From NCBI GenBank assembly GCA_001767605.1, contig MELM01000012.1:81018-117488 (forward strand): 36,471 nt of DNA, written 5' to 3'. Of the stretch, positions 5,832 through 13,025 are shown in pieces; the first letter of the stretch is position 1, and the number at the start of each line of letters is the position of its first letter. Position numbers and translations under genes: made by a program. The notes under the pieces are model-generated. The model saw only the letters and a list, made by a program, of their open reading frames with translations, searched no databases and had not been told where the DNA came from. Source of the stretch: Candidatus Solincola sediminis. Its GTDB lineage: Bacteria; Actinomycetota; Geothermincolia; Geothermincolales; RBG-13-55-18.

Positions 5832-5948
5832 ATGGCTTTCCCTCCGCTAGATAGATACCCCCTATTTTACCCGCTAAAGCCCTTGCCGCGTCTTCCGAAG
5901 CCAGTAATAATCGAGGTGAGTTTACACAACTTTATGGAGGTGCTTGGA

Positions 5949-6173
5949 ATGGAACAAAACGTGGGAATGATGGACAAGGCGGGAAGGCTGGCGCTGGCTG
6001 CCATTCTTTTCGGAATCGCCTGGCATAAGCCGGGAAAAATCAGAGTGCTGGCGGCCTTCGAAGCCGGTATGTTGACCATGTCGGCTGCCTCCGGCTACTG
6101 CCCCTTATATAAGGTAATAGGCATGAACACCGCATGCAGTTCCGACCAGTCATGCTGTTCGGATTGTAGCTAA
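5949..6173 (+). CDS. DUF2892 / YgaP-like inner-membrane protein
   Basis: 'MEQNVGMMDKAGRLALAAILFG...LTMSAASGYCPLYKVIGMNT' matches the YgaP-type membrane domain pattern. Cys-rich tail. GGAGGTG upstream of ATG at 5949. Confidence 0.8.
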   Translation: MEQNVGMMDKAGRLALAAILFGIAWHKPGKIRVLAAFEAGMLTMSAASGYCPLYKVIGMNTACSSDQSCCSDCS

Positions 6174-6198: not shown

Positions 6199-6211
6199 CC
6201 TTAAAAGAGTT

Positions 6212-6326
<115 letters not shown>

Positions 6327-6360: not shown

Positions 6361-6382
6361 TATACCTTCAAAACTGCACAGC
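6361..6382 (-). other. 3' half of 23S processing stem
   Basis: tataccttcaaaactgcacagc is nearly complementary to 10185-10204 (actgtgcagttttcaaggta). Confidence 0.75.
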
Positions 6383-6691
6383 AACCTCTGAGATTTAGTA
6401 CCAAGCCCTCGACCTATTAGTACCGGTCAGCTCCACACGTTGCCGTGCTTCCACTTCCGGCCTATCAACCTTGTGTTCTTCAAGGGGTCTTACCCGGTTT
6501 CCCGGTGGGAGAACTGATCTTGGGGTCAGTTTCCCGCTTAGATGCTTTCAGCGGTTATCTGATCCAGACGTGGCTAACCAGCAGTGCTCTTGGCAGAACA
6601 ACTGGCACACCAGAGGTCTGTTCACCCCGGTCCTCTCGTACTAGGGGCAAATTCCCTCAATTCTCCTACGCCTGCAGCAGATAGGGACCGA

Positions 6692-7428
6692 CAGTTTTGT
6701 TACTCCCGATCGGCGTTGCCGGCCGATTCGAGGGTCCGGTCATTTCTGCCGGACTCTGCATGTCGCCATGCAGCTCGGACTATATCTTCATCCCCTGATC
6801 GGGATGTTCGGCGTATAGTCTCTGAGGATTCTAGACCAGAGAGTATCTCTCCGAGACTCGCTCTTCGATACCGTCCTCCACCATTCACGGAGAACACTAT
6901 CTCTAGCAAGCCAGCCAATCCTTCCTTTGTCCGATGCTCTCCCCTCCCCAGCGCTATCACGATCGCGCTGAACTTGGTGAAGTCATCTTGCTTGGACAAA
7001 AGAAGCGGGTTGCGCTGGAAGAATGGAATTACTTTCCTCGTCAAATCCTCGCAGTTGCGCACCACGAAGACCGAGATCGATCATTCGATCTCAACCGGTG
7101 GTTGGGCTTGATATATCCGCATCCCAACCGTTCCTTCATCCTCTCCAGAACCGAGCTTCGCTCTTCATTCTGGCTTACATGGAATTCCGGAACCAGCTGA
7201 ATCCCTAATTGGCAACTGGGATTCCGCTCCACCGCGACGTGGAAGCTTCCTTCCCCGTCAGCGTACCCTGCTAAATAGGCATCTAGCCTTTCCTGCTGGT
7301 TGTCTGCAGTCATGACATTTTCACTGGCTCCAACGATTAGTGCTTTTTTACACATTCATTGCAACCGAGTAGTCTGACATTCTCAGGGTTTCCAGCATTT
7401 AGCCGAATTTATAGACAGCAATTCCCTT
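6692..7428 (-). mobile_element. Group I intron in 23S rRNA
   Basis: Exons rejoin uniquely to the canonical 23S ...GTGAGACAGT|TCGGTCCC. Last exon base U, last intron base G. P1: exon AGACAGU pairs with internal guide GCUGUCU (7413-7419) with a terminal U.G. P7: GACUA (within 7370-7377) pairs with UAGUC in AAGAUAUAGUCC (6777-6788). P9-like hairpin CUGCAUG-GCGA-CAUGCAG (6756-6773). Confidence 0.93.
6700..7355 (-). pseudogene. Intron-encoded LAGLIDADG homing endonuclease, reading frame apparently broken by a 1-nt shift near 7068-7080
   Basis: First frame (7041..7355): 'LDAYLAGYADGEGSFHVAVERNPSCQLGIQLVPEFHVSQNEERSSVLERMKERLGCGYI'. Second frame: 'VFVVRNCEDLTRKVIPFFQRNPLLLSKQDDFTKFSAIVIALGRGEHRTKEGLAGLLEIVFSVN' continuing to a stop at 6700. 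Together they form one single-motif LAGLIDADG protein. Confidence 0.85.
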
Positions 7429-7462
7429 ACTGTCTCACGACGTTCTAAACCCAGCTCGCGTA

Positions 7463-7499
<37 letters not shown>

Positions 7500-7503
7500 A
7501 CTC

Positions 7504-7555
<52 letters not shown>

Positions 7556-7559
7556 ATGG

Positions 7560-7614
<55 letters not shown>

Positions 7615-7763
7615 CGGCTCTCCCACATGAAGCCGCCGGATCACTAGGCCCTGCTTTCGCACCTGCTCGACTTGTGAGTCTCGCAGTTAAGCTCCCTTCT
7701 GCCCTTACACTCTACAGCTGATTGCCAACCAGCTTGAGGGAACCTTTGGGCGCCTCCGTTACA

Positions 7764-7801
<38 letters not shown>

Positions 7802-8054
7802 ACACTGTCCCGCAACCGGATAACGGTTGTCGGTTAGAGCCCCAGCACATCAAGAGTGGTATCCCAAGGACGGCTCCACGAGAACTAGCGTCCCCGCTTC
7901 AAAGCCTCCCACCTATCCTGCACATGATGAACCAAAGCCCAATATCAGGCTACAGTAAAGGTTCACGGGGTCTTTCCGTCTTGCTGCAGGTAGCCCGCAT
8001 CTTCACGGGCAATGCAATTTCGCCGAGTCCCTCGTTGAGACAGCGCCCAAGTCG

Positions 8055-8144
<90 letters not shown>

Positions 8145-9107
8145 AGGTTCAGAGCTTCGCGGCCGAAGCCGCTAACCCTTCCCCTTAACCTTCCGGCACC
8201 GGGCAGGCGTCAGCCCCTATACGTCGTCTTACGACTTAGCAGAGACCTGTGTTTTTAGTAAACAGTCGCTTGGGCCTATTCACTGCGGCCCTCTCACGCT
8301 TAGGGAGTAAATCCCCTTACGTTATCAGGGCGCCCCTTCTCCCAAAGTTACGGGGCTAATTTGCCGAGTTCCTTAACGAGGGTTATCTCGATCGCCTTAG
8401 TATTCTCTACTCGCCCACCTGTGTCGGTTTGGGGTACGGGCACCACGTTAACTAGATAGGGACTTTTCTAGGCGGCATGGATTCGGCGACTTCCCCTATA
8501 AGCGGGTCGGCATCACGCCTCAGGCTTAATGCCGCCAAGCATTTAACTCGGCAGCGCCCTACACGTTTACCCGCGGTCTACCAGCGCCGCGGTTCGCTTA
8601 TCCTTCCGCGTCCTCCCATTTCTAAATGATTAACATGGTGGTACCGGAATATAAACCGGTTGTCCATCGACTACGCCTTTCGGCCTCGCCTTAGGTCCCG
8701 ACTGACCCTGGGTGGATTAACCTTCCCCAGGAACCCTTGGGCATTCGGCGGACGGGTTTCTCACCCGTCTTTCGCTACTCATGCCGGCATTCTCTCTTCC
8801 TTGCGGTCCATCGATAAATCCCATTGATAGGAAACCTATAAATGGGAAACCCTTACGGGTCAACTTCACTCCCCAAGGAATGCTCCCCTACCCATCTTGC
8901 CCGAAGGCAAAATGCCGCAGCTTCGGTGTCGTGCTTGAGCCCCGCTACATTATCGGCGCGAGACCACTTGACCAGTGAGCTGTTACGCACTCTTTAAATG
9001 GTGGCTGCTTCTAAGCCAACATCCTGGCTGTCTGGGCGGTTTCACATCCTTTCCCACTTAGCACGAATTTAGGGACCTTAGCTGGCGGTCTGGGCTGTTT
9101 CCCTCTC

Positions 9108-9138
<31 letters not shown>

Positions 9139-9550
9139 CCCAGGCTCTAAAGCATTGGCATTCGGAGTTTGACTGGGTTTGGTAACCGGTGAAGGCCCCT
9201 AGTCCAATCAGTGCTCTACCACCAATGCAAAACACCTGAGGCTAGCCCAAAAGCTATTTCGGGGAGAACCAGCTATCTCCGAGTTTGATTGGCCTTTCAC
9301 CCCTATCCACAGGTCATCCCCTCCGTTTTCAACCGAAGTGGGTTCGGTCCTCCACGAGGTCTTACCCTCGCTTCAACCTGCCCATGGATAGATCACTCGG
9401 CTTCGGGTCTACGGCACGCAACTAAAACGCCCTATTAAGACTCGCTTTCGCTTCGGCTCCGGGTATATCCCTTAACCTTGCTGCGTACCGGTAACTCGCC
9501 GGCTCGTTCTACAAAAAGCACGCCATCACGGAATTACCCGCTCTGACGGT

Positions 9551-9585
<35 letters not shown>

Positions 9586-9591
9586 CCTCCC

Positions 9592-9636
<45 letters not shown>

Positions 9637-10184
9637 TGCCAGGGAGTATTTAGCCTTGCGGGGTGGTGCCCGCAGATTCCGACGGGATTTCTCCGGTCCC
9701 GCCGTACTCAGGATCCCTGCCGGGAGGCCTATTCCTTTCGCCTACGGGGCTGTTACCCTCTATGGCAGATCTTTCCAGAATCTCTCGACTAGAAATAGAC
9801 TTTGTAACTCCCTGGTGTCTCCACAGCGACACCAGGCAGGTCCTACGACCCTCAACGGACAACGCCTGTGAGCTTATGCATCCGTTGAGTTTAGGCTGTT
9901 CCCGTTTCGCTCGCCGCTACTCGGGGAATCGCGCTTGCTTTCTTTTCCTCGGGGTACTTAGATGTTTCAGTTCCCCCGCTTACCTCCTCACGCCCTATGT
10001 GTTCAGGCGTGGGTACCGGCGCATTACCACCGGTGGGTTCCCCCATTCGGACATCTCCGGATCAAAGCCTGTTAGGCGGCTCCCCGAAGCTTTTCGCAGC
10101 CTACCACGTCCTTCATCGGCTCCTGGCACCAAGGCATCCACCGTATGCCCTTAGTAGCTTGGTAATTTAACAATCTCTTCAATC

Positions 10185-10205
10185 ACTGTGCAGTTTTCAA
10201 GGTAC
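10185..10205 (-). promoter_or_regulatory. boxA-like element and 5' half of 23S processing stem
   Basis: - strand gtaccttgaaaactgcacagt. CTTGAAAACT resembles the TTTGAAAACT boxA form of Bacillus-type rrn leaders and pairs with 6361-6382. Confidence 0.65.
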
Positions 10206-10256: not shown

Positions 10257-10285
10257 AGTATATTATTCTAGTACAGCCAGGTCAA
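10257..10285 (-). promoter_or_regulatory. Sigma70-type promoter upstream of 23S
   Basis: - strand TTGACC-N17 (TGGCTGTACTAGAATAA)-TATACT. Confidence 0.65.
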
Positions 10286-10325: not shown

Positions 10326-10844
10326 TCAGCCCTGCTGTTGCTTCAGGTAACCGCCGGCTATCGGTGCCAACGAAAGGATAATAGCGATTATCCAGATTGG
10401 CCAGTTCATTCCCATCTTGACGCCGACTCCAAAGCCAACCGAAGGCTTGATCAATATCGCGAGAAGGGTCGTAATCGTGCCCAGCGCTCCAACCACGAGA
10501 TATATCGTCCCGACGGGAAGGCTCAAATCTACAAGGTTGAACATCTCATTGGCAATCATGAATCCGGCGAAAAGGAACAGCAGGAGTTCAATGAGGCGCG
10601 GAAGCCATTGCCAACCACCACTCCCAGTGGCCGATGCTCCGAATCCCAGATAGTCAACTGACGCCTTATACCAGCCTATCATGGCAAAAATGAAGGTCAA
10701 AAGGGCGCCCGCCGCTACTACTATGTCCGGTATCGGGAGCCTGGATGTGTCTACCTGTGGCCTCTGCCGCATAGGCGCCTGCGGAGGTCCCATGGGAGGC
10801 GGTTGCATCCCTCCCGGGGGCGGTCCTGGCGGTTGCTGTACCAT
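10326..10844 (-). CDS. Uncharacterised membrane protein with Pro/Gln-rich N terminus, located in the 16S-23S spacer
   Basis: 172-aa ORF with four hydrophobic segments, 'MVQQPPGPPPGGMQPPPMGPPQAPMRQ' head, SD AAAGGAG upstream (ggaaaggagttagcgATG). Confidence 0.8.
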   Translation of the reverse strand: MVQQPPGPPPGGMQPPPMGPPQAPMRQRPQVDTSRLPIPDIVVAAGALLTFIFAMIGWYKASVDYLGFGASATGSGGWQWLPRLIELLLFLFAGFMIANEMFNLVDLSLPVGTIYLVVGALGTITTLLAILIKPSVGFGVGVKMGMNWPIWIIAIILSLAPIAGGYLKQQQG

Positions 10845-11050
10845 CGCTAACTCCTTTCCTTTCTCAAGACCTTTCTTTAATTATCTTGAAATGTAAGCCA
10901 AGCAAGCATGATTAACTCAATAACCAAAACAAAACATAACCTATTGAAAGCGCTTTTGCCAGCCCTGGTGGTCTTTTTTCTCACACGTCTATTTATGTAT
11001 ATCTATTAATTCCCTTTTTACATAAAAATAATTCGGTGCCTGTAACACCA

Positions 11051-11119: not shown

Positions 11120-12673
<1,554 letters not shown>

Positions 12674-12793
12674 AAATGCAGTCCTTGCGGACTTACATAC
12701 TTTCGAAGTTCGTCTTGGCTCCAAATTCGGCTGGTTTACCTTTCGGTATACCTGTACGGAATTGATTGGAGCTTAATTCACTCTCTCTCTGAT

Positions 12794-12816
12794 GCACTGT
12801 TTAGTTTTCAAGGAAC
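12794..12816 (-). promoter_or_regulatory. boxA-like element and 5' half of 16S processing stem
   Basis: - strand GTTCCTTGAAAACTAAACAGTGC. Confidence 0.7.
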
Positions 12817-12842
12817 GTGATTCAAGCACCGAACAATGCTAA

Positions 12843-12871
12843 AAGGTAGCACGCGCAATTTTTGCTGTCAA
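12843..12871 (-). promoter_or_regulatory. rrn promoter P2
   Basis: - strand TTGACA-N17-TACCTT, about 170 bp before the 16S 5' end. Confidence 0.75.
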
Positions 12872-12996: not shown

Positions 12997-13025
12997 ATAG
13001 TATCACTGCGGTTCAGGCATGTCAA
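12997..13025 (-). promoter_or_regulatory. rrn promoter P1 (distal)
   Basis: - strand TTGACA-N17 (TGCCTGAACCGCAGTGA)-TACTAT. Confidence 0.75.

Follow-up and report, generated by a model that had tools for sequence, protein, structure and literature searches.

The rRNA operon and its spacer gene

The window, by which we mean the whole 36,471 nt stretch of Candidatus Solincola sediminis DNA analysed here, contains a single rrn operon, which cmscan places on the minus strand in the order 16S, 23S, 5S (Table 1). It is a linked operon, with the three genes ordered on one strand and with paired processing stalks. The spacers between 16S and 23S genes are usually regarded as sites of tRNA genes and processing signals, and normally contain tRNA genes at most. 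Here the spacer, which an earlier sequence-only reading had put at about 950 bp and found to be devoid of any recognisable tRNA-Ile or tRNA-Ala, measures 958 bp by cmscan (the 23S 5' end being at 10164), and ARAGORN, applied to the window and to 15 related operon loci, reports no tRNA gene. The spacer instead holds an ORF of 172 codons on the rRNA strand, which has an ATG start and is preceded by a Shine-Dalgarno sequence, as that reading had described.

Table 1. Coordinates of the rrn genes, the spacer gene and the associated signals within the window
Feature	Position	Strand	Basis or remarks
16S rRNA	11123..12673	-	RF00177, 1597.7 bits (cmscan)
23S rRNA, intron-split at about 6692-7428	6409..10164	-	RF02541; exon boundaries by comparison with an intron-free relative
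5S rRNA	6210..6325	-	RF00001 (cmscan)
Type B gene for a 172 aa four-TM membrane protein whose N-terminal tail is Pro-rich	10326..10844	-	ORF and translation, dN/dS, homologues, structure model
Shine-Dalgarno sequence AAAGGAG, 6 nt 5' of ATG	10851..10857	-	Sequence; identical in 12/12 aligned relatives
16S leader strand of processing stalk, TTCCTTGAAAACTAAACAGTGCA, also boxA-like	12793..12815	-	Complementary to trailer strand
16S trailer strand of processing stalk, CGCTGTTTAGTTTTGAAGGAA	11051..11071	-	TTAGTTTTGAAGG invariant in 12/12
23S leader strand of processing stalk, GTACCTTGAAAACTGCACAG	10186..10205	-	ACCTTGAAAACTGCACAGTG invariant in 11/11
23S trailer strand of processing stalk	6364..6386	-	Pairing with leader
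rrn promoter-like P1, TTGACA-N17-TACTAT	12997..13025	-	Like sites about 280-366 nt 5' of 16S in 12/12 close relatives
rrn promoter-like P2, TTGACA-N17-TACCTT	12843..12871	-	Like sites about 116-203 nt 5' of 16S in 12/12 close relatives
Promoter-like P3, TTGACC-N17-TATACT, between ORF and 23S	10257..10285	-	Conserved in 11/11
Terminator-like hairpin with T-rich tail, 3' of 16S stalk	11034..11050	-	Weak here, strong in many relatives

The intron that splits the 23S gene is an approximately 740 nt group I intron (RF00028, 36 bits, E 3e-7, under the gathering score) with a LAGLIDADG endonuclease ORF (7041-7355; PF00961, E 1.6e-10) that appears to be frame-broken, with the C-terminal half following in a different frame (6700-7065). 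Introns in 23S are frequent in the class; the insertions in relatives L022, L024, L025, L028, L033 and L074 lie elsewhere, at about positions 2045 and 2056 of the window's 23S, those of L022 and L028 being group I introns by Rfam, and some of the relatives' insertions contain LAGLIDADG ORFs. At the other end of the operon a gene for a YgaP-like small membrane protein (5940-6173, plus strand; PF11127, E 1.1e-13) adjoins 5S and is convergent to the operon, a position that is kept in relatives.

The spacer ORF is under purifying selection

The spacer ORF is a bona fide protein gene under purifying selection. Four close pairs give dN/dS values of 0.097, 0.065, 0.105 and 0.107, with changes falling mostly at third codon positions (13/4/38, 6/5/42, 17/6/54 and 24/8/65 for first/second/third positions), and these exclude neutral codon evolution, the first of two ways in which the sequence-only reading could have been mistaken. 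The second, an assembly break between 16S and 23S, is excluded by the presence of the gene at the matching place wherever the spacer of a class relative is assembled. In close pairs the ORF is 84-90% identical, whereas the adjacent spacer is only 67-75% identical and has many gaps; across the family the proteins share 50-72% identity. Both the Shine-Dalgarno sequence and the MVQQ start of the ORF are common to all 12 aligned genomes, while the remainder of the leader is not alignable. The gene is single-copy in its own 2.55 Mb genome, where it lies on a contig of 195 kb.

Residence in the spacer across and beyond the class

The gene is a long-standing resident of the 16S-23S spacer throughout the class, an actinobacterial one that has received little study. 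Our class sample comprises 31 genomes, in 16 of which a single contig links 16S to 23S (G000-G005, G008-G011, G017, G018 and G020-G023); the relatives' genomes appear to be metagenome-assembled, and the named ones are. In each of these 16 linked operons the 16S-23S spacer has a homologue in the same orientation as the rRNA genes, and G006 supplies a seventeenth case, in which the homologue lies 3' of 16S on a contig that then ends, so that homologues do occupy ITS regions as the sequence-only reading had invited one to ask. No class genome with an assembled linked 16S-23S pair is without a spacer copy; the sole linked pair that lacks the gene is on contig C127 of G006, which has a 16S just 84% identical and looks foreign. 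Contigs C127, C104 and C230 of G006 carry extra diverged 16S or 23S fragments that are probably foreign, and no class genome other than G006 shows more than one rrn operon. The linked spacers of the class have ITS lengths of about 0.8-1.7 kb. Named relatives in the class belong to Candidatus Solincola and Candidatus Geothermincola; a search of the named genomes' contigs with the window protein as single query gave no matches, and the same search with the alignment as query recovered eight named relatives.

Some class genomes have two or three paralogues per spacer. That of G008 holds two tandem copies with the MVQQ start; in G017, G018, G022 and G023 a second type (A), recognised by PVGDF close to the N terminus and mostly also by FRL.RSPGWVY mid-protein, precedes the type found in the window (B); and in G020 types A and B are accompanied by a third, C. 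Copies also occur away from rRNA genes, as type A in G014 and G028, and those of G018 and G030 adjoin shikimate-pathway genes (L078 4106-4606 and L079 4146-4553; names read from translations). In G029 a type-B homologue lies directly 3' of 5S on the rRNA strand (L075 678-1124).

In the phylum as a whole, homologues were found in 52 of 397 sampled genomes, the class included (profile A1, E<=1e-6). One other class has 22 linked genomes with spacers of 216-437 bp, the usual size there, which are empty and too short for the gene, and also has members with a homologue in the spacer (G252, 980 bp; G411, 861 bp) or adjoining 23S at a contig end (G410); the arrangement occurs there in two families. 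In a tree of 56 homologues, many of whose branches are long, these spacer copies fall outside the window's family, and there are eight changes of location, at least four of which are forced by well-supported branches. The tree leaves a single origin of spacer residence neither shown nor excluded.

The spacer protein

An AlphaFold2 model of the protein (mean pLDDT 77.6) consists of a disordered tail (residues 1-37) and helices at 38-54, 77-102, 111-131 and 148-171, the fourth of which is broken at 159; helices one and two are joined by a beta hairpin (59-74). The model supports the four TM helices and the Pro-rich tail of the protein, which the sequence-only reading had described as a four-TM protein with a Pro/Gln-rich N terminus. 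Residues M1, D40, W58, P110, L116, P134, G164 and G165 are invariant in a 16-row alignment, and the protein fits an unnamed actinobacterial four-TM family (profile A1) with a conserved tryptophan after TM1 and a GG close to the C-terminal end.

The protein matches no family of Pfam, NCBIfam, PHROG or PADLOC above threshold, and a PDB sequence search identified no family. There is weak likeness, over part of the membrane region, to three Pfam families of multi-TM proteins of unknown function, with every score far under the curated cut-offs: Trp_oprn_chp (PF09534; residues 42-123, 8.7 bits, E 1.9, against a gathering score of 29.6), DUF5336 (PF17270; matched by 2 of 16 members, the window protein not among them, with E 0.013 at best) and DUF7937 (PF25592; partial similarity). 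The best Foldseek matches in the PDB are TARP and claudin proteins (E 0.014 or worse, TM-score about 0.4, 11-15% identity), which resemble the spacer protein in their four TM helices and in having a beta element within loop one; with no match at E<=0.001 and TMq about 0.4 a claudin-like fold was rejected, and to judge from the model the resemblance is one of topology only. The spacer matches no intron family and the ORF contains no nuclease domain; the ORF is thus not a homing endonuclease or intron ORF, and given also its vertical conservation we dropped a mobile origin of the gene. As a guess, a role in the envelope or as a membrane scaffold, scaling with growth, seems the most likely.

Processing stalks, promoters and hairpins

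The ORF is situated in the linker between two processing stalks. In the window and its relatives the 16S leader TTCCTTGAAAACTAAACAG pairs with the trailer CTGTTTAGTTTTGAAGGAA, and the 23S leader and trailer pair too; the duplex energy of the 16S stalk is better than that of shuffled sequences in the window and in most relatives. The promoter matches in the window are by themselves not above chance, and the case for P1, P2 and P3 rests on their conservation. The position of P3 and its TTGA...TAGGAT pattern are kept in 11/11 relatives having the region, the form being TTGACC-17-TATACT in the window and TTGA(C/T)N-18-TAGGAT in the others, and P3 is not recognisable in class orders other than the window's.

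Between 16S and the ATG lies a leader of 278-703 nt among relatives, in which only the stalk, the hairpin and the Shine-Dalgarno sequence are conserved. In 12 close relatives it contains no conserved promoter, although the method used readily reveals P1, P2 and P3; in one class relative (G021) TTGCAA-17-TATAGT precedes the ORF. A hairpin with a T tract follows the 16S stalk in most close relatives, among them G001, G002, G003, G006, G008, G010 and G011, and that of the window folds no better than shuffled sequences. Another terminator-like hairpin, with T6, lies between P1 and P2 (12891-12908, minus strand), and transcripts from P1 would need to pass it. By eye, the 16S leader (12816-12840, minus strand) repeats one arm of the post-16S hairpin (11032-11050), as TTCGGTGC versus GCACCGAA in the window and TTCGGCGC versus GCGCCGAA in relatives, so that a single strand could be claimed either by the hairpin or by the leader-trailer stalk.

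Expression of the spacer gene

We favour, at a probability of roughly 0.6, an arrangement suggested by this layout in which the gene would be transcribed by readthrough from the rrn promoters, released by stalk cleavage, and translated to give attenuated membrane protein synthesis that follows that of rRNA. The gene would have no promoter of its own; RNA polymerase from the tandem promoters 5' of 16S would pass the 16S stalk and, in many relatives, the terminator-like hairpin as well. Such stalks are cleaved by RNase III in known bacteria, and as the ORF lies in the linker between them, cleavage of both would release it as a short mRNA that could then be translated. 23S and 5S could additionally be supplied from a separate promoter downstream of the ORF and 5' of 23S. 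Synthesis of the membrane protein would thereby track rRNA synthesis, and hence growth rate, at an attenuated level.

The sequence-only reading had gone further, in proposing that cotranscription would yield the mRNA at rRNA rates, and in this respect it is weakened. The codon adaptation index of the ORF (0.659) is close to the genome background (0.668 +/- 0.034) and below that of ribosomal proteins (0.721), and this average codon usage suggests a moderate rather than extreme level of expression. The terminator-like hairpin after 16S in many relatives and the conserved P3 between the ORF and 23S tell against it too; together they suggest that the operon may consist of two transcription units, the ORF being expressed as attenuated readthrough of the first.

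The main rival to readthrough is a private promoter in the leader, the gene then being a mere lodger at a tolerated site with no link to rRNA. The length of the leader provides room for such a promoter, in several relatives the terminator-like hairpin after 16S would serve to insulate it, the G021 sequence is a candidate, and the average codon usage is as would be expected; a weak or non-sigma70 promoter might lie there. We nevertheless consider this rival unlikely, since no promoter-like element of the leader is conserved, and since a lodger would be expected to have departed in some lineage, yet 16/16 linked operons retain the gene, always on the rRNA strand. A second rival regards the product as incidental and the gene as marking the boundary of two independent transcription units, 16S and 23S-5S; it draws on the conservation of P3 in position and sequence and on the hairpin and T tract after 16S. 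It appears distinctly improbable, because the strong purifying selection on the protein and the retention of paralogues in the same spacer both show that the product matters, and P3 is unseen in other class orders. Least of all do we credit that the gene is an artefact of assembly or binning, or that the open frame is non-coding: although all of the genomes appear to be metagenome-assembled, the identical junction recurs in 16 genomes of different genera, on contigs of up to 305 kb and with synteny kept (tyrS upstream, the YgaP-like gene downstream), and the ORF has a coding signature.

Readthrough with stalk-cleavage release may be part of something broader, and we suggest tentatively, at somewhat less than even odds, a class-wide device in which the stalk cleavages that generate mature 16S and 23S would also excise the mRNA of a membrane protein from the rRNA precursor, the amounts being set by a conserved layout of promoters and terminators. 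Such a gene would be growth-rate-controlled and promoterless, and the device would have been adopted more than once by the same protein family.

Significance and comparison with known systems

The retention of a protein gene throughout a class, with up to three paralogues, and its presence in two families of another class imply that selection favours the site. The spacer gene would be a natural case of protein synthesis tied to that of rRNA, so that bacteria may link the production of a membrane protein to that of ribosomes, and whether an excised rRNA spacer serves as mRNA is now a directly testable question. The location also provides a functional clue to this membrane-protein family, whose role presumably either scales with ribosome production or tolerates such scaling. 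In a literature search that covered few subscription papers, we met no earlier account of an rRNA spacer with a conserved protein gene.

Two known arrangements are instructive. Unlinked or split rRNA operons, with an ITS of >1.5 kb, are prevalent in Deinococcus-Thermus and Planctomycetes according to the summary in one report (PMC11261877), and they resemble the present operon in that 16S and 23S are farther apart than usual and 23S possibly has its own promoter; they differ from it in that here the genes are linked, both stalks are intact and the insert is always of one gene family. The other is the ordinary rrn operon, as in Escherichia coli, which has tRNA genes in the 16S-23S spacer (PMC4696680). 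There, likewise, the stalks flank a functional gene that has the orientation of the rRNA genes and that processing would set free, but whereas the passenger in the ordinary operon is a tRNA, here one to three protein genes take that place and tRNA genes are absent.
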